From positions 1-64,000 of the forward strand of contig CAMCXO010000006.1 of NCBI GenBank assembly GCA_945883565.1: a DNA stretch of 64,000 bases, given 5' to 3'. Positions 1-8,765 of the stretch are shown here, one piece after another. The DNA comes from Chryseobacterium gleum. Its GTDB lineage: Bacteria > Bacteroidota > Bacteroidia > Flavobacteriales > Schleiferiaceae. The notes under the pieces are model-generated. The model was not told the DNA's origin. It worked only from the letters and a program-made list of their open reading frames with translations, and did no database searches. Made by a program: the position numbers and the translations under genes. The stretch's first letter is position 1; each line of letters opens with the position of its first letter.

Positions 1-78
1 TTCTTCATAGACGGACTCAAACAATCCCGGACCGAGTTCTACATGAATCCGGTAGCAGGTGTCAACTATTATTTTTGA
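1..78 (+). CDS. C-terminal end of an outer-membrane barrel-like protein (partial)
   Basis: The first 78 bases are one open frame ending in TGA; its last residues read MNPVAGVNYYF. A final strand rich in aromatics and ending in Phe at the stop is typical of outer-membrane beta-barrels, so this is probably the last strand of such a protein, whose start lies left of the window. Only 25 residues are visible, so no family can be named. It is the only plus-strand coding sequence before position 6306. Confidence 0.6.
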   Translation, partial: FFIDGLKQSRTEFYMNPVAGVNYYF

Positions 79-100
79 TATTTCGTTTTCTGTCATCCTT

Positions 101-258
101 TTTCTTATTTCTCGCTAAGGCGCAGAGGCGCAAAGGTTTATTTCTTTGCGCCTTCGCGTCTTTGCGTGCAACTTTTCTTATTTCTCGCTAAAGCGCAGAG
201 GTTTATTTCTTTGCGCCTTCGCGTCTTTGCGTGCAACTTTTCTTATTTCTAGCTAAGG
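101..258. repeat. Tandem hairpin-forming repeat, two copies and a partial third
   Basis: A unit beginning TTTCTTATTTCTCGCTAA and ending CTTTGCGTGCAAC occurs at 101-172 and again at 174-237, with a truncated third start at 239-258. Inside each unit CGCAGAGG/CGCAAAG faces CTTTGCGCCTTCGCG, so the transcript can fold. It follows the barrel gene directly and may act as its terminator. Similar CGCAAAGG-type repeats are widespread in bacterial intergenic DNA. Confidence 0.75.
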
Positions 259-324
259 TCTGTTCAAAATGAAATACCAAAGCAAATTGCCCTAGTTAAA
301 GGCCAGCCTGCCATTGTAACAACA

Positions 325-620
325 AGACCAAAAGCAGAAAAGCTCGAAATGGCGATGATTAAAAGTGAGAAAAACTTGGCTAAGGCCATTTATATTTTTT
401 TTGGACCTAAAATGGGCCTATTAACTGCATTTTGAGGGGGTCAAAAAAACCAACAAAGAAATCTACACAAAAAGACCAAAAGCAGAAAAGCTCAAAATGG
501 CGATGATTAAAAGTCAGCAACCCCCAGGCTAAAGCCATTTTTAATGTATTTGGACCTAAAATGAGCACTAAGGCATTTTGAGGGGGTTGAAAAAAACAAC
601 AAAGAAATCTATACAAAAAA
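325..620. repeat. Diverged tandem duplication, about 148-bp unit
   Basis: The stretch starting AGACCAAAAGCAGAAAAGCT at 325 starts again at 473. Both units run through GGCGATGATTAAAAGT, TTTGGACCTAAAATG, CATTTTGAGGGGGT and AACAAAGAAATCTA. The copies differ by substitutions and small indels, so the duplication is not recent. A 69-codon minus-strand frame spans it, but that frame only follows the repeat and has no recognisable protein pattern. I see no gene between 79 and 730. Confidence 0.75.
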
Positions 621-694
621 ACAGAAGCTTTTAAAAAGCCACAATTGAAGCCAAAATTTGAATCTATGGTTTAAGCTTTGACTTCATGATAAAA

Positions 695-724
695 GTTGTG
701 CAACAGGTACTGCTGTTATAAGCC
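695..724 (-). other. attC-like half site after the 369-residue gene
   Basis: Read on the minus strand, the stop codon at 731 is followed by AAAAAC and then GGCTTATAACAGCA, continuing GTACCTGTTGCACAAC. The GGCTxATAACAGCA core also follows the stop of the AIPR gene (minus strand from 2287). Only the gene-proximal arm is recognisable. The distal arm with a second GTTATAAGCC is missing, so the site is probably truncated where the cassette-like block joins the 148-bp repeats. Confidence 0.5.
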
Positions 725-730
725 GTTTTT

Positions 731-1840
731 CTATTTTCTCGATCTGTTGTTCACAATATTAATTCTTGTCGTTATCCCAATTTGTAATTTTGACAAAGCA
801 CCTTTTGTGTCGTCACTTGTGTCAACATTAAAAATATCTGCATAGTCTATTGTTAATCCTGCAACTGGATTAAAAGCGTTTTGATTCTTTAGAAAGAAAA
901 GACCAAACCCTAATTTGGTTTTCGGTTTTTCAGTCTTAGATATATCAGTCCGATTGTAAAGTAGAAATGATTGGTTTTCTAAATTATGTGGAACAAAATA
1001 TAAGTCAAAGTTTAACGGATAAACTGTATTTTCCTTATATGTACCGCTGTAAACAGTTTGCTTTGTAATTACTTTTCTGACTGTTCCCGTTGCAGTGTCA
1101 GTTAATGTTCTAGTATCTTCTTGGGTGCTTTCATTTAAATCATCAAAATTATTTGTTCGTTTAATTCCTATTGTTGCTCCAGCCAAAATAGTACTGTTCA
1201 ATACTCTCGCATTCCAATAATTGAAACCAATATTAATTTCTGTACCTGTAAAATTTATTTTTTCTATCTGTTTAGAAAAAGTAGAGTCTGGACGAAAGTG
1301 TTTAAATGATGAGCCTTTAAAACCACCCGTAGCCACTAACCATAAGTCAGATGCAGGTCGTGTACTGTTGTCTAGTACATCTTGTATTTCTTGGGCTGTC
1401 TTTTTTCCTGCCAATAAGGAAGTCCAATCAGTTTTATTTCTAAAAAGTCTAAAACCAAGTCTTAAATTTGCGTCTCCACCAGAAACTACATTGCCTGTCG
1501 AAAATAAATTTGTTACACTATTCTTTATTTCACCTGAACCTGAAACACCAATAAAAAAATCCGTGAAATTTATAGAGTGGAAATAATTATAATGATTAAG
1601 TTCTAACTTTTTATCAGTTGTTGTAAATCGAATAAGTCCTAAATTGAAAGACACTGTGTCAACTTTTGGTTTATTTTCAGCTTCATCCTTTTTTGTCTCC
1701 TTAAAGCCGGGGTTTAATGGAATTGAACTAGTCCCACCACCCGAAATGATATTTTGGGATAAAACGGAATTTTGGAAAGTGAAAATAGATATTGCTATAA
1801 GTAGAAACTTATAATGTGATTTCTTGATTGAATTGTCCAT
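731..1840 (-). CDS. Secreted or outer-membrane protein of unknown function
   Basis: This 369-residue protein is not recognised. Residues 1-29 form a signal peptide (basic start, hydrophobic FLLIAISIFTFQ, then SVLSQ). The rest alternates polar and hydrophobic residues, with many aromatic-ended strands and a C-terminus KLQIGITTRINI, which fits a beta-barrel or beta-rich surface protein. It overlaps the upstream 103-residue frame by 32 bases, so the two are probably co-transcribed. Both lie between attC-like sequences and look like the cargo of one cassette. The coding sequence is AT-rich compared with the core genes further right. The ATG at 1840 is chosen because the signal peptide begins there. 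Confidence 0.75.
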   Translation of the reverse strand: MDNSIKKSHYKFLLIAISIFTFQNSVLSQNIISGGGTSSIPLNPGFKETKKDEAENKPKVDTVSFNLGLIRFTTTDKKLELNHYNYFHSINFTDFFIGVSGSGEIKNSVTNLFSTGNVVSGGDANLRLGFRLFRNKTDWTSLLAGKKTAQEIQDVLDNSTRPASDLWLVATGGFKGSSFKHFRPDSTFSKQIEKINFTGTEINIGFNYWNARVLNSTILAGATIGIKRTNNFDDLNESTQEDTRTLTDTATGTVRKVITKQTVYSGTYKENTVYPLNFDLYFVPHNLENQSFLLYNRTDISKTEKPKTKLGFGLFFLKNQNAFNPVAGLTIDYADIFNVDTSDDTKGALSKLQIGITTRINIVNNRSRK

Positions 1841-2120
1841 ATCCGTTTCTATTAAATGGTTTGAATAAGTTAAAACTTCCTTTTAAATTTCCGTCAACAA
1901 GAACGGTCATTTTTGAATCTGTATTCGGATTACCCACAGCTAGGATTAGAAGGTCTAAGTCATTATCGTTGTCAATAGGAAAGTTATTGAACTTCCCTAC
2001 CCATTCACCATTCTTAAAGGTGAAATGAGTTTTAGGATTGAGATTTTTGCTTTCTAGCAAACAGAATTCAAGTCTTATTGAGTTACTGTCAATTTTAATC
2101 TCGATGTTTACTTTTGTCAT
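1809..2120 (-). CDS. Small protein of unknown function
   Basis: This 103-residue product starts MTKVNIEIKIDSNS and has no signal peptide or membrane segment. The amphipathic strands and segments such as LLILAVGNPNTDSK and MTVLVDGNLKGSF suggest a small cytoplasmic beta-sandwich. The start ATG lies about 30 bases downstream of the GTTATAAGCC core of the attC-like site. The same geometry is seen for the AIPR gene, so this is probably the first gene of its cassette. Its 3' end overlaps the start of the 369-residue secreted protein gene by 32 bases, which argues for translational coupling. Function unknown. Confidence 0.65.
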   Translation of the reverse strand: MTKVNIEIKIDSNSIRLEFCLLESKNLNPKTHFTFKNGEWVGKFNNFPIDNDNDLDLLILAVGNPNTDSKMTVLVDGNLKGSFNLFKPFNRNGYGQFNQEITL

Positions 2121-2150
2121 ATTATTTTTTTTAGTGATTCCGTTTAAAAT

Positions 2151-2287
2151 GGCTTATAACAATTGGCAGCTGCAAGAAGTTGGCGATTTCGGAGACGAAA
2201 ACTGTCTTCCACCACTGAACTTAATACGAAGCACAACGCTTCATTTAACCACTGAACCGCCAATTTCTTGTAGGTGCTGTTATAGCC
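2151..2287 (-). other. attC-like recombination site (imperfect palindrome)
   Basis: On the minus strand this begins eight bases after the AIPR stop with GGCTATAACAGCACC and TACAAGAAATTGGCG. It ends with CGCCAACTTCTTGCAGCTGCC, AATT and GTTATAAGCC. Folded on itself, the ends pair over about 30 bases: GGCT-ATAACA, GCAxCTxCAAGAA and xTTGGCG match, leaving four unpaired bases (ATTG) and a one-base bulge on one arm. Two paired boxes separated by a spacer with extrahelical bases is the structure of integron attC sites. The variable middle holds a small GAAGC/GCTTC hairpin and a direct repeat TTCAGTGG. The core is GTTATAR rather than the classical GTTRRRY. No recombination activity can be shown from sequence. 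Confidence 0.6.
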
Positions 2288-2294
2288 AGTTTTT

Positions 2295-4007
2295 TTAGTA
2301 TTTCGCTTCAAGTTTTTCAATTACATATTTTGTAAAGTCACCCGATTTTGCCATATTTATTAGGTTCGCAGAAGTATTGATTCTTTGGAATTCACTAATC
2401 GTCTGTGTCAAAAAATCGAGGCTCTCATTAAATTTAGTCTGATCAAACAAAGTCAAGTTAAAAGTTGATAGTTCATCAAAGGTTATACTCTTTTTACTTA
2501 ATGAAACTTTTGAACTTATCCACGTTAAATGTAATTTGAAATTTGCTGTCATTCCCTTTTTGGTTGGATCAGAAATGTTCAACCAAAAGTCATTTGATTT
2601 TTTATTTATTAAACAACAATTTAAATAACCTTCATAATTTTTTGAAGGATCAAAAATTTGATTGTAAATTCTATCATCTTTTAAAAGTGAAGTCGGCTTT
2701 GCTCTTGCTGAATGCGGATCATTGAAGACGATTGCTCGTATTGCTTGAGCAGTATATTGTATGCTAAATATTTTTGAAGAGGGTTTGCCTTGGTTCTTAT
2801 AATAATTTTTCCTCCTGTCATAAAAGTAGCCTTTGTTGTAAAAGAATATTTCTAAGTTTCTCTGAGTTGATTCAGTTGCACGCAGTAATGTTGCGGATAC
2901 TGGGTTCTGACTATTTGTTGATGCAATTATATTGTCTATCGTTTCTTTATTATTATTAATTATCACTTTGACTAATACGGATCTTTCATCCGTTGTATCG
3001 TCATTATGACTATTGAAAATAGAATATGAAGTTTGAAGACCATTAACAATTTGAACATTTTCAATTGCCAATTTTTTTCCAATTTGATTTGGCGATTCTG
3101 CAATTATTGTAATTCCATTATTTAACCACCAGAAATCTTTATCTTCAATAGTTTCAATTGTAGATTTAATTTTTTTATTTACATCTACTTCACCTTGAAA
3201 ATGTCGTATGTTACTTTCAAATAAGTCATCACGAATCTCAGAAGTTTCAGCGGTTAAAAAACTTTTATAATCCGCTAGCTTTACAGTTCCAACATAACCA
3301 ATACCAAACTCCTTATAACTTGTCGAAAGTGGCTGTTCTTTAAATTCTAATGTCAACCTATTCGTTTTATGTGCTTGATATAATTTTAGCAATTCTGAAC
3401 AACTATAATTTGAATAGGTAATATTCTCATTAGAAAAAATTCTTTTTGTTAATGCTTTTAACTGATCGACTTTACTGTTAAAAGCTCCATTTACTTCAAT
3501 TTCGGTTGCATTGCATGCATAAATGAAGTCAATAAAAATATTTCCGCCACTTATTGCAGTTTTTTGCCAAACTTGGTTAACCAATAAAGCTAATGTTACC
3601 AAATCAGCATTGAATCTCGTCAGCAATGCTGTTTCGTTCTTTTCCAAATCAAACAATTCCGGTAGAGTTGTAATTAATTTGTCCAATGGAGCCTCCTTAA
3701 ATGAGTTTTCTTTTTTACATTGTGAGATAATAAATCGACTGTTGGTTTTATTCGAAAATGTGTATTCATTTAACTCATCAATTGACTCTATTACTTCATC
3801 ATCGATTAGTACGATTATTGAATCAATACCTCCATCATTACCACCGTCAACAATTGAGTTTAATATATTTTCATAACTCAAGTCATAAACTTTTGTCGTC
3901 TGAGTTAAGCTAAATAATTCAAATATTTCGCTGTCTCTTAATTCAATTTCATTTGCTGTTTTGAATTGGGTTAAACACCCTTCTAGTATAATTCTGTTGT
4001 TACTCAT
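2295..4007 (-). CDS. AIPR-family protein, putative phage-defence factor with N-terminal nuclease-like region
   Basis: The 570-residue product carries the hallmark of the AIPR (abortive infection phage resistance) family, FWWLNNGITI at residues 292-301, preceded by LFESNIRHFQG at 262-272. Its N-terminus has a restriction-endonuclease-like pattern: GGNDGGIDSI (Asp at 58 and 62), followed about 34 residues later by SQCKK (Gln96, Lys98), resembling the D-(x)n-QxK core of Mrr-like PD-(D/E)xK nucleases. AIPR proteins are associated with phage resistance; nuclease activity here is inferred. The gene starts 28 bases after a GTTATAGCC core and ends eight bases before an attC-like site, so it looks like a single-gene cassette. 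It is AT-rich, consistent with transfer. Confidence 0.85.
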   Translation of the reverse strand: MSNNRIILEGCLTQFKTANEIELRDSEIFELFSLTQTTKVYDLSYENILNSIVDGGNDGGIDSIIVLIDDEVIESIDELNEYTFSNKTNSRFIISQCKKENSFKEAPLDKLITTLPELFDLEKNETALLTRFNADLVTLALLVNQVWQKTAISGGNIFIDFIYACNATEIEVNGAFNSKVDQLKALTKRIFSNENITYSNYSCSELLKLYQAHKTNRLTLEFKEQPLSTSYKEFGIGYVGTVKLADYKSFLTAETSEIRDDLFESNIRHFQGEVDVNKKIKSTIETIEDKDFWWLNNGITIIAESPNQIGKKLAIENVQIVNGLQTSYSIFNSHNDDTTDERSVLVKVIINNNKETIDNIIASTNSQNPVSATLLRATESTQRNLEIFFYNKGYFYDRRKNYYKNQGKPSSKIFSIQYTAQAIRAIVFNDPHSARAKPTSLLKDDRIYNQIFDPSKNYEGYLNCCLINKKSNDFWLNISDPTKKGMTANFKLHLTWISSKVSLSKKSITFDELSTFNLTLFDQTKFNESLDFLTQTISEFQRINTSANLINMAKSGDFTKYVIEKLEAKY

Positions 4008-4034
4008 TATCTTGTTGTATGTCGTTTTAAAATT

Positions 4035-4043
4035 GGCTATAAC
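4035..4043 (-). other. Cassette-junction core GTTATAGCC (attI- or attC-like)
   Basis: On the minus strand GTTATAGCCAATTTTAAAACG lies between the recombinase remnant and the AIPR start codon. The other cassette start, at the end of the attC-like site (2160 down to about 2140), reads GTTATAAGCCATTTTAAACG. The two junctions are therefore nearly identical over about 20 bases and lie at the same distance (28-30 bases) from the next ATG. No paired arm is visible upstream, so this could be an attI-like site or the right half of a decayed attC. Confidence 0.45.
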
Positions 4044-4803
4044 TTATATATATACGAAAATATAATCTACTTCTTCCGGCTTGTTGTGGTCTAATATTTT
4101 GCATAGTATACTCATTATTACTGATTTTGTTGGTTTTGGTAAAATTAGCTTCGTCCTGGTCTTTTGATCTAGGGGGCTGTTTATTCTATTTACTTTGGCT
4201 TGGGTTAAGTGGGTATAAATGGTAGCGGTCTTGATGCTGTAGTGTCCAAAAATCTTTAACACCCAAAATCTGATGAATCCGGCTGCGTACCTTTTCATTT
4301 TGAAAGGCCATATAGCATTTGTGCGAAGCATTCCAATAGACTCCTTTTACGTTTTTAAGTTCTTGCACCCATTTTGGTCGGTAATGAAGTTTAAATGCCC
4401 AGTACCTACCTACTACACCCATATACTGCAAATCGGGAAACATTTCAGCCTCGTCATTATTAGGCTTATGTACAGCGTTCTCTTGGTCCATTTCGGGCGC
4501 AAGGCGCTGCAGAGCGTAGCTGTTTTGAGCCACTATGGGTGGAATTTCTCGGTTTAAACCACCGGCCACCTGTTGTTCCGTTTTACTTTCTGCTTCAGGC
4601 ATGAGCAGCACCACGTCCTCAATGCCTTTTAATTTATTATATGAGGCTAAATCGTCGTTCAGATACCAACATTTTTTGCTTGAACTGTAACGCCCACCTA
4701 TTTGCTTTATACGCTCATTTAACGAACCGTTAAAAGCAAAGTACAGGGCTATGCGCCACTGTCCGCGGTGAAACATTTTCTGTATTTTAACTTCTGTTGT
4801 CAT
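4044..4803 (-). pseudogene. Tyrosine recombinase/integrase remnant with the catalytic core deleted
   Basis: The frame from 4803 encodes two copies of the small N-terminal domain found in many Bacteroidota tyrosine recombinases: RGQWRIALYF...GGRYSSSKKCWYL, then GRYWAFKLHY...GVYWNASHKCYMAF. Shortly after QILGV the other frame takes over with FGHYSIKTATIYTHLT and INSPLD, the C-terminal LGHxSxKTTxIYTH motif including the nucleophilic Tyr. The roughly 180-200 residues between, which should carry the Arg-Lys-His-Arg catalytic residues, are absent, and the two parts are in different frames. The gene is therefore dead. It shares the strand of the cassette-like genes that follow and may be the enzyme that once moved them. 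Confidence 0.8.
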
Positions 4804-5007
4804 CTTTAACTTTATACGTAGGCTAAAACCACTCCATTAATCGATGCTGTAAGGTCAAAATATTTTGAGAATCCACCAAGTAATGAGTAAGAAAATTTTT
4901 CAAAGTGGTGGTGTTCAACTACAGCCGGTCTGCGGCCTCATTCCATCCCCCCCTAGAAAAAACAGTCCTCATATCTTAACTAATGACATATTTTTTTGGA
5001 TACCTCC

Positions 5008-5064
5008 GGAATGGGCTAAATCCGCACTCCCATTCCTTGAATAGCCTCCAGCTTTAGCTGGAGG
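5008..5064. repeat. Two adjacent REP-like hairpins
   Basis: GGAATGGG at 5008-5015 pairs perfectly with CCCATTCC at 5029-5036, and CCTCCAGCT at 5045-5053 pairs with AGCTGGAGG at 5056-5064 around a two-base loop. Such closely spaced GC-rich hairpins resemble REP elements mobilised by REP-associated tyrosine transposases or the ends of IS200/IS605 elements. No transposase is present here. The interval 4804-5118 holds nothing else I can identify. Confidence 0.6.
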
Positions 5065-5118
5065 ATAATAAAATTCCATTTTTTAGCTCCTGAAAAACAC
5101 AATTTTTGGATGCCCAGA

Positions 5119-5796
5119 CCTCGAACTCACTTATAACATACCTCGAACTCACCTTGCAGACTCGTAAGTCACCTTCGCAGACTCGTAATCACATTTTAAT
5201 CAGGTGTGTATGTCTCTTATTTGGGTATAAATGTTGTTTACATAGGTATAAATGCTCTATAAGCCGGCAAGTGTGCCTTTTCAATGGGTGTGTATGCCGC
5301 CTAAAACGGGCATGCACGCATTTAGTTTGGGTCTAGATGCTTTTTACACGGGCGCAGATGCCTTTTAAAATAGGCCTATTGGCATTCAATGAGAGCACTT
5401 AGGCGTTTTACATGACCTTATAGGTATTCTAAGGTGGGCCTTTATCTATTAAAAATTACCATAGATGGCTTTAAAGTGGTCGTATATGCGTTATTCAATG
5501 GGCACGGTGGTATTTTAAGCGGGCACGGTGGTATTTTAAGCGGGCACAGTGGTGTTTTAAATGGGTATACCTACTTTTTACATGGCCATAGGTGCTTTAG
5601 TAAATAGGCTTCAACACATTGTAATTGGGCACAGATGCATTGTAGTCGGGCATGGATGTGTTACTAAGCGGGCACGGCGGTAATGAAGTTGGTTTTGGCG
5701 CTCTTTTATGTGTTTTTACTGCCATTTTAAGCGGGCCTTGTGGTCGTCTATTTGGGTAAAGCGCTTTTTGAAGCGGGCATGTATGTTTTTTGGTCC
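5119..5796. repeat. Degenerate tandem array, about 28 units of 21-22 bp plus four divergent leading units
   Basis: From 5202 the sequence can be cut into 28 consecutive units of 21 or 22 bases, each starting near GGGCA or GGGTA, with a consensus close to GGGCAnngATGCnTTTTAA plus two variable bases. Units start at 5202, 5223, 5244, 5265, 5286, 5308, 5329, 5350, 5372, 5393, 5414, 5436 and so on to 5775. Two neighbours (5500-5520 and 5521-5541) are identical, a recent duplication inside an otherwise old array. Four earlier units of 20-22 bases beginning CCTCGAACTCAC or CTCGTAA lie at 5119-5201. Units of 22 break any reading frame, so the array is not obviously coding. There are no unique spacers, so it is not CRISPR. 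Confidence 0.8.
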
Positions 5797-5928
5797 ATGT
5801 AATTCATTATAGGCAGCTTAAGTTCCCATATGGCTTTGTTTTAGAAGGTTTCAAAAACAAGAATCCAATCCAAAAAGGGGCTAAGGTTATTATCATACCA
5901 AACGGTGTTTTGTTCCATGGCGGTGCGG

Positions 5929-5954
5929 TAGAGACCTTGCATGCAACGTCTCTA
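5929..5954. repeat. Near-perfect 26-bp palindrome
   Basis: TAGAGACCTTGCA joined to TGCAACGTCTCTA is a palindrome with one mismatched pair, centred on TGCATGCA. It is followed by an A-rich, CAACAA-repeating stretch to about 6000. It resembles dispersed palindromes common in intergenic DNA of this phylum and has no gene-linked role I can infer. Confidence 0.6.
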
Positions 5955-6005
5955 TAATAAAAAACAACGTCTCACAACAACAAACAACAAAAAAAACAGA
6001 CAGTC

Positions 6006-6195
6006 CGCGCCAGGGATTGAAGTGGAAAGCCCGCAGCCGCCTTGACCATAGCCTTTTGAATTAATCATGCCCATCCTTAAATCCAGAAAATCATGGTTCA
6101 GACAATGGCGGCGAGGACTTGGAGCGTAAAGCCCGGCCCGCGAGAGGGTGCTGGTGGTTTGGCTTTATATGGTTTTTATACCCCGCGCGGGGGCG
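6006..6195 (+). repeat. Bipartite dispersed repeat, copy 1
   Basis: Half-site A at 6011-6036 (CAGGGATTGAAGTGGAAAGC then CCGCAG) and half-site B at 6113-6138 (GAGGACTTGGAGCGTAAAGC then CCGGCC) are similar to each other, sharing AGGnnTTG-nAG-nG-nAAAGCCCG, and lie in direct orientation. A GC-rich palindrome CCCCGCGCGGGG at 6181-6192 and GGGCGCCC follow. The same pair of half-sites, inverted, occurs at 48905-49032. The 6093-6299 open frame over this copy is a by-product of the repeat. Confidence 0.8.
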
Positions 6196-6248
6196 CCCAC
6201 ATTCGTGCACCTATGGCTGGGTGTTGTGGTAATTTAATATGCAGGGGG

Positions 6249-6279
6249 TTTGATGCGCTTGGGTTTTTGTCTACTTTCG
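6249..6279 (+). promoter_or_regulatory. Bacteroidetes-type promoter of ndk
   Basis: TTTG at 6249-6252 is followed by exactly 19 bases and then TACTTTCG at 6272-6279. This fits the Bacteroidetes primary-sigma consensus TTTG-N19-TAnnTTTG with one change. Transcription would start near 6285, about 20 bases before the ndk ATG. Confidence 0.7.
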
Positions 6280-6305
6280 CGGCCGAAATAAAGCCTTAAA
6301 AAACT

Positions 6306-6716
6306 ATGCGCACTTTTACTATGATTAAGCCTGATGCTGTGGCCAATGGCCATATTGGGGCTATTTTGCACCGCATCAATGCTGCGGGTTTTAGAATTGT
6401 TTCTATGAAATTAACCCGTTTAAGTGTGGAAGAGGCTTCGGCTTTTTATGCGGTTCACCGTGAGCGTGGTTTTTTTAACGATTTGGTGAGTTTTATGACT
6501 TCCGGCCCTATTGTGGCTGCTATTCTGGAGAAGGAAAATGCTGTGGAAGATTTCCGCAAACTTATAGGTGCTACCGATCCTCAAAAGGCGGATGAGGGCA
6601 CGATTAGACGCGATTTTGCCCAGTCTATTGAAGCCAATGCGGTGCATGGTTCTGATAGCAACGAAAATGCGGCCATTGAAGGTGCGTTTTTCTTTGGGGT
6701 TCGCGAGCAATTTTAG
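6306..6716 (+). CDS. ndk: Nucleoside diphosphate kinase
   Basis: This 136-residue enzyme transfers the gamma-phosphate of ATP to nucleoside diphosphates through a phosphohistidine. The sequence shows the N-terminal [11 protein letters not shown] motif and the active-site [12 protein letters not shown] with the catalytic His at about residue 114; the length is normal for the family. It stands alone between a strong promoter (6249-6279) and a terminator (6755-6780), so it is probably monocistronic and constitutive. Cytoplasmic. Confidence 0.97.
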
Positions 6717-6754
6717 AGCTAAATCACCGAGGTTTCACCCATTGGTAATATTTG

Positions 6755-6780
6755 GAGGCGCTTTGGGCGCCTCTTTTTTT
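6755..6780 (+). terminator. Rho-independent terminator of ndk
   Basis: GAGGCGC at 6755-6761 pairs with GCGCCTC at 6767-6773 around a five-base loop, followed directly by seven T. Confidence 0.9.
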
Positions 6781-6863
6781 TAGCCTTACCTCTCTTTTAG
6801 TTTGTGTGGGCTTAGATTAAAATTCGGCTTTACTTTGTGGCTTAGCTAAACGCTTCTGTTTTT

Positions 6864-8765
6864 ATGATTACCATTCAAAACCCCGGGTTGTTGCGCAATT
6901 TGCAAATGTATTTCGAGAAAAAAAGCTGGGATGTGTGGCTGGTGGGCGCGCTTTCGCTTCTGTTTGGCACCTTGCTTTACGAGTTTAAGGTAAGTGAAGG
7001 GGGAGATGATTCGGCCTATATTTTAAGGGCTTATGACCTTATACACGATGGAGTTTTTCCTTCGTTTCAAGGGCCCATTTATCCGTTCTTTCTTTCGATA
7101 TTCATGTTGGCATTTGGGTTAAATATCCAACTGTTTAAAATTCTCTCGCTACTTTGTTTGGCCGGATTTTTTATGCTGGGCTATGCTTATTTAAAAAAAC
7201 GTTTACCCACTGCGGCTTTGTTGCCGGTATTTATTGGGGCGGCTTTTAGTCCGATGCTCATGTATTTTGGTTCTCAAACCTATTCGGAGGCGTTTTTTTT
7301 AATGCTGTTTGCGCTGTTTATTGGGTTTTTCTTTCGGTATTTTGTTGATGAAGACCAAAGTCAGCTTAAGCCTTGGCATTTTGTGGCTTTGGGCCTATGG
7401 CTATGGCTTTTGGGCAATACGCGTACCATTAGTTATGCCTTATTGCCTGCGGTTTTGATGTATTTGGTAAGTGAAAAGCGTTGGCGAAATGCAGCCGTTA
7501 CCACGGGGGTTTTTCTGGGCGTTTATGGGATTTTTACCTTACTAAAACGGCTAATTTGGCCCCAAACCGATTCGGTTTTTTCGAGTCAAGGCAGCACCTT
7601 GCTGTTAAAAGACCCATATGCACCTACCCAAGGACAAGAAGATTTGGCGGGCTTTGTTGAACGCTTTACCGGTAATGCCGATTTGTACATCAGCAAGCAC
7701 TACATGCGCTTTTTGGGTTGGAAAGACATGCTTGATCAAGACATTAGCTCTATTAGCACCATAACGGTCGCCATACTTTTTGCTGGGGCTTTGTATATGG
7801 GGTGGAAAAATAGATACTTGAGGTTTTTGGCCTTTGCGGTGGGCTGTTTTATGGGGTTAACTTTTTTGGCGGTTCAAACCCGCTGGGACCAAGCGCGTTT
7901 GGTTTTGCCCTATTTGCCTTTTTTAAGTTTGGTGATTTTAAGTGGCTTAATAATTTGGCTCGACAAGCTTAAAAACCAGGGGCTGCAAATGGCGTATGTG
8001 GCTTTGATGGCGGTATTTTTATTGAGCGCTTTTTCGAAGAGCCGCGAGCCGATAGAGAAAAATCAAAAGGAATTTAAATTGGCCTTAGGTGGAAACGTAT
8101 TGGCCGGCTACACTCCCGATTGGCAGAATTACATTAAAATGAGCGAATATGCTGCCGAATTTGCACCTGATTCGGTAATGATTGCTTCGCGTAAAGCGGG
8201 CATTAGCTTTATTTACGGCAAGCGCCGTTTTAGAGGGGTGAACAAAATACCGTTTACCTATCCCGATTCGCTAAGTACTCCGGTAAATGGTTGGCTTATA
8301 GTGCCCGGTGATAAATTTGAAGCCACCAAAGCCAAAACGGGCTTGTGGGAAAAGCACATAAAAGGCGTTGCTTTTGGCGAAATAGACGCCTCGAACCCTA
8401 AATCGAAGGTGCCCTTTTACTACGTTCTTGAACCTGAGCAGCGTCTTGAAAAAGTGGATAGTTTGTTCGATTTTAAAACGTACACTTCACTCGAAACTTT
8501 AAGAGAAGGTTACAGCGAGTTTTTTATTGCCGAACCCGACCGTCTGGTAAATGAGTTGAAGCGCGATAATGTGCATTACATCATTATGGCCTCTTTGCGC
8601 CGAAACCCTTTGCAAAAAACCGAGTTCACCATTAATACCATTAGCCGCTATTTGTATTACATCCAAATGAAATATCCCCGGGGTTTAATTCAGTTGCACA
8701 CAATTGGCAACAGCGAACCGGCCAATTTGATACAGCTCAATTACCGGGAACTTCAATACAACTAA
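6864..8765 (+). CDS. GT39/ArnT-like integral membrane glycosyltransferase
   Basis: The 633-residue protein has many hydrophobic helices in its first two thirds (for example residues 25-42, 75-115, 125-150 and 165-185) and a soluble C-terminal domain of about 230 residues. Near the N-terminus, after the first helix, GGDDSAYILRAYDLI carries the acidic pair expected in the first periplasmic loop of GT-C enzymes such as ArnT and protein mannosyltransferases, followed by GPIYPFFLS. These enzymes use a polyprenyl-phosphate sugar on the outer face of the inner membrane. The next gene, 14 bases on, ends in a polyprenyl-phosphate glycosyltransferase-like domain, which could supply that donor. The acceptor is unknown. 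Confidence 0.75.
   Translation: MITIQNPGLLRNLQMYFEKKSWDVWLVGALSLLFGTLLYEFKVSEGGDDSAYILRAYDLIHDGVFPSFQGPIYPFFLSIFMLAFGLNIQLFKILSLLCLAGFFMLGYAYLKKRLPTAALLPVFIGAAFSPMLMYFGSQTYSEAFFLMLFALFIGFFFRYFVDEDQSQLKPWHFVALGLWLWLLGNTRTISYALLPAVLMYLVSEKRWRNAAVTTGVFLGVYGIFTLLKRLIWPQTDSVFSSQGSTLLLKDPYAPTQGQEDLAGFVERFTGNADLYISKHYMRFLGWKDMLDQDISSISTITVAILFAGALYMGWKNRYLRFLAFAVGCFMGLTFLAVQTRWDQARLVLPYLPFLSLVILSGLIIWLDKLKNQGLQMAYVALMAVFLLSAFSKSREPIEKNQKEFKLALGGNVLAGYTPDWQNYIKMSEYAAEFAPDSVMIASRKAGISFIYGKRRFRGVNKIPFTYPDSLSTPVNGWLIVPGDKFEATKAKTGLWEKHIKGVAFGEIDASNPKSKVPFYYVLEPEQRLEKVDSLFDFKTYTSLETLREGYSEFFIAEPDRLVNELKRDNVHYIIMASLRRNPLQKTEFTINTISRYLYYIQMKYPRGLIQLHTIGNSEPANLIQLNYRELQYN

Follow-up and report, generated by a model that had tools for sequence, protein, structure and literature searches.

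A probable decayed chromosomal integron of Bacteroidia from a lineage that appears to use an integrase without the IntI insertion

A recombinase remnant followed by two cassettes

The window, which is the whole stretch of 64,000 nucleotides analysed here, carries on its minus strand a decayed tyrosine recombinase gene followed by an attI-like site and two gene cassettes (Table 1). All features listed in the first-pass annotation were present in the sequence when the minus strand was read from 4803 to 695. The tyrosine-recombinase remnant recognised there is real and decayed: its catalytic core is missing, and no intact integrase was found at the window locus. The two N-terminal domains of the remnant were 40-41% identical to a near-complete recombinase of another genome (G009, C71), and its C-terminal 30-36 residues showed 42-50% identity to several intact members of the family. 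In the genome to which the window belongs (assembly 99.4% complete), the XerC- and XerD-like proteins were the only intact tyrosine recombinases, and no intact copy of the family was found. The placement of this genome in the class Bacteroidia is inferred from the named relatives of its recombinase and from its kinship grouping.

Table 1. Features of the locus, in the order in which they are met on the minus strand (a slash marks the insertion point)
Feature	Position	Strand	Details
Decayed tyrosine recombinase (integrase) gene	4044..4803	-	pair of tandem N-terminal domains, weakly HARP-like; catalytic core lost; C-terminal piece KTATIYTHLTQAKVNRINSPLDQ retained
attI-like site, ...TATTTTCGTATATATATAAG/TT	4043..4082	-	insertion point G4043/T4042
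Cassette 1, AIPR/AbiU gene with its own attC	2160..4042	-	start GTTATAGCC complementary to R'' GGCTATAAC over 10 nt
AIPR / AbiU abortive-infection-type gene, 570 aa	2295..4007	-	PF10592 E 8e-42; PADLOC AbiU 564 bits
attC	2151..2288	-	R'' GGCTATAAC, L'' GCACCTACAAGAAATTGGCGG, variable terminal structure, L' CGCCAACTTCTTGCAGCTGC, R' GTTATAAGCC
Cassette 2, two genes	715..2159	-	start GTTATAAGCC and end GGCTTATAAC complementary over 10 nt
Cassette 2 gene 1, 103 aa, unknown function	1809..2120	-	Pfam match sub-threshold only
Cassette 2 gene 2, 369 aa, unknown function	731..1840	-	no Pfam or PADLOC match
Interrupted attC of cassette 2: R'' and first bases of L''	710..724	-	GGCTTATAACAGCAG, then constant element
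End of IS1182-like element inside attC, and decayed repeats beyond (D3, D5, D8)	300..709, lower limit approximate	-	terminal sequence TRCCTGTTGCACAAC at 695-709

The window thus has one intact and one interrupted attC. The palindrome of the intact site had been described as attC-like, and its fold agreed with this description: z was -5.0 on the coding strand and -5.9 on the other strand, and none of 200 shuffles folded as well. An Rfam search of window positions 1-8000 returned no matching family. Weak Rfam matches to Flavo-1, BjrC68 and one microRNA were below threshold and unrelated. The Flavo-1-like repeat, at 6004-6200, and a region of 21-bp minisatellites (5200-5780) recur 1-2 kb upstream of several recombinase remnants (L012, L015, L033, L035, L036, L037, L038).

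Some details of the first-pass annotation had to be revised. The distance between the ATG and the G of GTTATA is 36 nt in cassette 1 and 40 nt in cassette 2, instead of 28-30. The near-identity of the two cassette starts is present, and is explained in part by a loose leader (GTTRRRYGYAAT, then A-rich) that cassette starts share throughout the group. The half site, at 695-729, belongs to an attC; it has a complete R'' and only the beginning of L'', where the end of an IS1182-type insertion breaks the site.

The sequence at 695-709 gave 11 pattern matches in the genome, while the reverse-read control gave none. Besides the window copy, these were at C8:287, C8:14824, C64:1856, C4:68338, C14:133, C14:1825, C17:3180, C28:27857, C34:16277 and C62:1297. 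This sequence followed a cassette R'' by 4-5 nt in 9 of the 10 copies read out (the C62 copy was left out), and one C14 copy abutted an attC L'' arm from the opposite side. An IS1182-family transposase (NF033551, 300 bits, cut-off 270) was found inside such an element at L017. Since the element seems to occupy a fixed spot in attC and contains this transposase, it is most likely an insertion sequence that targets attC. Such targeting is known for the unrelated IS1111-attC group, whose members likewise land at a fixed place in attC sites; these have a DEDD-type IS1111 transposase, whereas the window-type element has one of the IS1182 family.

Cassettes and attI copies in the same genome and in relatives

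The window palindrome had six strong blastn relatives on other contigs of the same genome. A covariance model built from nine sites of this genome detected 13 attC sites there altogether. The remnant and attI region, used as a query, gave 15 matches, and 12 dispersed copies of the recombinase 3' end with attI were read out (C2, C3, C4, C5, C6, C7, C8, C18, C26, C34, C48, C64). A different sequence followed G/TT at each of them. Nine of the 12 copies, with a clean ...TATATATAAG/TT or the variant TATTATG/TT, were aligned: the 40 nt to the left of G/TT were 74% alike, and the 40 nt to the right 44%. Of the three unaligned copies, C18 has the same junction, and C5 and C7 have altered junctions.

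Complementarity between the start of a cassette and the R'' of its attC is a hallmark of integrons, in which a cassette circularises through its attC. All eight cassettes listed from this genome showed it over 10 nt, which is beyond chance. The R'' complemented the cassette's own first 10 nt in C6 (1755 nt, in the window), C4 (1250), C26 (811), C48 (2824), C8 (9914), C2 (649) and C64 (913), and in the C18 cassette, of about 1.6 kb, GTTATAGCTC pairs with GAGCTATAAC. For the C3 and C34 cassettes, R'' was not found within the stretch examined.

Several cassettes of this genome look like carriers of phage-defence genes. In addition to AbiU in window cassette 1, there were type I restriction-modification genes and two PDC proteins in C8, of which PDC-S21 has SIR2-like similarity and PDC-S60 contains a metallophosphatase domain. 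A reverse transcriptase (DRT RT_UG14, 719 bits) was found in C18, and a weak TIR match in C64. The first cassette of an intact array in a relative (G017) also carries AIPR/AbiU. Defence cargo as such is already known for integrons, judging from the 2025 papers on Vibrio and mobile integrons as they are cited in PMC12444791. At about 10 kb, one cassette that carries four defence-like genes (L011 1399-11438) is unusually long for an integron.

With the covariance model, attC-type sites were found in 32 of 88 family genomes, 111 of 248 order genomes and 185 of 393 genomes of a phylum sample, in which 76 attC-positive genomes belong to Bacteroidia. These counts rest on rough E-values, although array-level complementarity backs many of the sites examined; many sampled genomes are metagenome-assembled, and counts over related sequences are not independent. 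In these sites the R''/R' boxes (RYYYAAC/GTTRRRY) are conserved, and L arms as well as a variable terminal structure are present. The GTTATAR core proposed in the first-pass annotation holds as a local variant of the general core, which is GTTRRRY. The bottom strand folded better in 46 of 66 sites of related sequence, which gives only weak support for a strand preference.

The first-pass annotation had asked whether intact recombinases of this family lie beside cassette arrays in related genomes, and such loci were found. In G017, an intact recombinase of 379 residues is followed on the same strand by the AIPR cassette and 12 attC. Its cassettes mostly contain one gene or a short operon per attC, and each R'' is, with few exceptions, the complement of the R' of the preceding attC. 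Among adjacent attC pairs in relatives, 32 of 33 showed such complementarity over 9-10 nt. An attI G/TT lies shortly after the recombinase and is chained to the first attC in G018, G043, G065, L112, L124 and L148. Counting first members of arrays, 18 of 49 R2 hits were chained to a neighbouring attC; no chaining to a neighbouring attC was found for the hits in G006 C97 and part of G039, and unchained hits may be degraded or have undetected neighbours. One genome in a single contig (G280; L226, L227; G280:C1:3600001-3630376) has about 40 attC in 28 kb, which is the size of a superintegron; its integrase lies outside the sequence region examined. The arrays of G017 and G280 satisfy the integron criterion of at least two attC no more than 4 kb apart.

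Cassette turnover with breakpoints at G/TT, the observation on which the first-pass proposal depended, was found in three ways. One is the set of attI copies described above. The second is a pair of Chryseobacterium plasmids, which share the backbone, the recombinase and attI (about 90%) and diverge at ...ATAAACAAG/TT into different cassettes. The third is a three-gene cassette of 1.83 kb common to two genera (G005 and G017), with 92.9% identity over 1833 nt. It is the first cassette, at attI, in one array and the seventh in the other, and G/TT exactly bounds the identity. In addition, relatives of a cassette next to C2 in the window's genome were found in Flavobacterium aciduliphilum (84% over 2.1 kb) and G006 (78%). 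At the level of sequence comparison, the architecture, the exact G/TT breakpoints, the complementarity of cassette ends and the exchange of cassettes between genomes are therefore documented.

On a Chryseobacterium plasmid (L240; about 13120, 15280, 17660 and 20730), the same hairpin start GTTGGGAAAAATCGCCC...TTTTTCCCAAC occurs after attI and after three attC, and a similar one stands at one cassette start in another genome. This recurrent hairpin is possibly an element that inserts at G/TT.

Linkage of the arrays to the recombinase and properties of the enzyme

The relation between recombinase and array was analysed independently of the covariance model, by counting AAC/GTT-flanked hairpins whose R'' complements a GTT 8-mer that lies upstream. 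The flanks of 43 recombinases from the Bacteroidota group were covered, over a maximum of 10 kb per side. A search for complementarity without the hairpin was judged too noisy and was replaced by this hairpin-chained test with three control positions. Chained hairpins were found downstream on the same strand in 36 cases, downstream on the other strand in 2, upstream on the same strand in none, and upstream on the other strand in 2. At eight canonical IntI loci, all five matches were upstream on the other strand, which is the classical divergent arrangement; thus, the method recovers the known geometry. A small subclade (G005, L139, L141) has its attC upstream of and divergent from the recombinase, as do G143 and G198. 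When attC arrays were taken as the starting point, a recombinase of the same group without the insertion was found beside 7 of 12, and no recombinase was found in the flanking part examined of the other 5.

The predominance of one arrangement bears on the possibility that a canonical IntI or XerC/XerD acts on the arrays in trans, the adjacent recombinase being an unrelated neighbour. This possibility is not empty, since canonical IntI scored above cut-off in 107 of the 393 genomes of the phylum sample and the window's own genome retains only XerC and XerD intact. It is nevertheless very unlikely. All but one of the 107 genomes are outside the window's class, and canonical IntI was above cut-off in none of the 76 attC-positive genomes of that class or order in the same sample. 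At nine canonical IntI loci, which come from genomes outside the class and from the one class member with a canonical IntI (G320), no attC of this type was found within about 10 kb. Moreover, recombinase and attC keep a fixed order and strand relative to each other. Whether every attC-bearing Bacteroidota genome uses the enzyme without the insertion was also considered; canonical IntI proved to be frequent in the other classes, and our claim is therefore limited to Bacteroidia. The idea that the attC type belongs to IntI in genomes with a canonical IntI was not supported at the nine loci. Outside the class, a canonical IntI and an insertion-less integron occur together in one genome (G375; L256, L255); the latter has an attC array of its own, with the insertion-less enzyme at the head and oriented the same way.

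An additional domain near patch III, an insertion of about 42 residues specific to IntI, is treated as a signature of integrons. It is absent from the recombinases described here. TIGR02249 was below cut-off in all 88 family genomes, and its matches skip profile positions of about 180-239. In an alignment to the IntI4 structure 2A3V, 17 residues of the G017 enzyme stand opposite 59. The spacing from KGxKDR to LRHS is 102 residues in canonical IntI and nearly always 60-61 (range 59-65) in the Bacteroidota enzymes. In a tree of 75 sequences, canonical IntI formed one starred clade (100), and the Bacteroidota enzymes, falling outside it, formed a separate group with a support of 88, through which the enzymes with attC are spread. 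Recombinases of genus g5 (L210, L211, L212) resemble the family; they differ from it in the C-terminus and are not accompanied by attC, and a role as integron enzymes is improbable. The best curated model of the recombinase was XerA_Arch NF040815 (230.5 bits, cut-off 220). As far as sequences can tell, both the linkage of recombinase and array and the absence of the insertion are established.

These properties are difficult to reconcile with a standard IntI integron of the kind already catalogued. Integrons have been recorded in Bacteroidota (PMC8618304, PMC9668308), and NCBI calls at least one of the proteins 'site-specific tyrosine recombinase/integron integrase'; this is the name of the XerA_Arch model. 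Given the sub-threshold TIGR02249 scores, the motif spacing and the separate position in the tree, an ordinary IntI is hardly credible. Furthermore, the IntegronFinder 2.0 survey had at first only In0 in Bacteroidetes and later names one complete integron in Bacteroidetes proper, that of Salinibacter ruber (PMC9024848). The 2008 survey had chosen integrases by the IntI additional domain (PMC2426708). No description of insertion-less integrases heading attC arrays was found in the open-access literature, preprints and most subscription papers being outside the scope of this search.

That the palindromes are generic repeats (REP/MITE-like or terminators) lying by chance between genes, as their conservation, multiple intergenic copies and stray single copies in several genomes might suggest, is already contradicted, because a dispersed repeat cannot produce 9-10 nt of complementarity between R'' and the start of its own cassette, the flanks switch exactly at G/TT, and the control orientations of the hairpin test were almost empty.

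The predicted structure of an Algoriphagus enzyme (pLDDT 83, pTM 0.56) had the IntI4-attC complex 2A3V as its best fold match in the PDB. The N-terminal domain was modelled with a pLDDT of 88. It matched Pfam HARP in 2 of 20 sequences (E 0.0014) and DUF5710 in 7 of 20 (E 5e-5), and Foldseek comparison with the SMARCAL1 HARP domain and the XPB damage-recognition domain gave E-values of 0.05-0.1. Its resemblance to these domains is weak and near noise level.

Interpretation and comparison with known systems

The first-pass annotation had proposed that a system in Bacteroidota works on the integron principle, the recombinase being of another family and bearing tandem N-terminal domains. The present results support this proposal: the two conditions named as refuting it, a lack of cassette turnover and a generic palindrome, both turned out in its favour, and the enzymes have no IntI insertion and fall outside the canonical IntI clade. 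We consider it probable, with a probability of about 0.88, that Bacteroidia have an integron variant with an insertion-less integrase and that the window holds a decayed chromosomal integron of this kind. The locus would then be what remains of a chromosomal integron from a lineage in which the tyrosine recombinase, as predicted from intact relatives, consists of one or more extra N-terminal domains, a SAM-like core-binding domain and a catalytic domain. This recombinase would most likely recombine the folded attC hairpin of circular cassettes with attI, which is usually expected directly behind the stop codon of the recombinase gene, although one subclade has it upstream. Cassettes would enter at G/TT, and may be excised or reordered by recombination between two attC. 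Catalysis of insertion and excision by the adjacent recombinase, the use of single-stranded attC as the substrate and a contribution of the N-terminal domain to the reading of folded DNA are inferences. With a broken integrase and an insertion sequence in one attC, the window copy would be static unless another recombinase acts in trans.

Some points count against this variant integron. The integrase gene of the window is a pseudogene without an intact counterpart in its own assembly, and a strand preference of attC has only weak support. The insertion was reported to be necessary for IntI activity, according to the title of Messier and Roy 2001 as cited in PMC2426708; an enzyme without it should therefore need a compensation, which is as yet unshown. 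The 12 dispersed attI copies in one genome, with decayed genes, remain unaccounted for. In addition, the array of the window lies downstream of the remnant, whereas the subclade nearest to the remnant (G005, L139, L141) has its array upstream and divergent.

A broader proposal is that there are two lineages of integron enzymes, IntI and the insertion-less one of Bacteroidota, that a HARP-like N-terminal domain replaces the insertion in the latter, and that the latter is the main machinery in Bacteroidia and coexists with IntI in other classes. We regard this as a tentative hypothesis, possible and somewhat short of an even chance. The insertion was reported to be necessary for IntI activity, according to the title of Messier and Roy 2001 as cited in PMC2426708; an enzyme without it should therefore need a compensation, which is as yet unshown.

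This is a widespread and apparently undescribed kind of integron: its attC type is present in about half of the sampled Bacteroidota genomes and also on plasmids. If the lineage is real, the integrons of Bacteroidia have so far been largely missed, the minimal requirements for recombining a folded attC need rethinking, and a large stock of cassettes, defence systems included, is open to study. The insertion-less lineage would also offer a direct test of the purpose of the IntI insertion.

Among known systems, the SMARCAL1 HARP and XPB damage-recognition domains share only a weak likeness of sequence and fold with the N-terminal domain, which in the Bacteroidia enzyme is joined to a tyrosine recombinase. 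XerA and the archaeal Xer proteins (NF040815) are alike in the length of the catalytic core and provide the best curated model. Xer enzymes resolve chromosome dimers at dif and are not known to have cassette arrays. In the accessible part of Smyshlyaev et al. 2021 (PMC8138268), the integron insertion is stated to be not fully conserved in an integron-like subgroup of simple tyrosine recombinases, and that part does not describe arrays, attI/attC or cassette exchange for the insertion-less members.

There is also a close likeness to the integron, the gene-collecting machine of bacteria, in its sedentary chromosomal form with IntI, attI and attC, such as the Vibrio superintegron. Both have attI at the head of a one-directional array, attC of the form R''-L''-VTS-L'-R' that are homogeneous within a genome, a GTTRRRY core cut at G/TT, and phage-defence cargo. 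In contrast to that form, the Bacteroidia integrase lacks the IntI insertion, lies in a separate clade and carries an additional N-terminal domain; its gene usually stands upstream of attI and is read toward the array.
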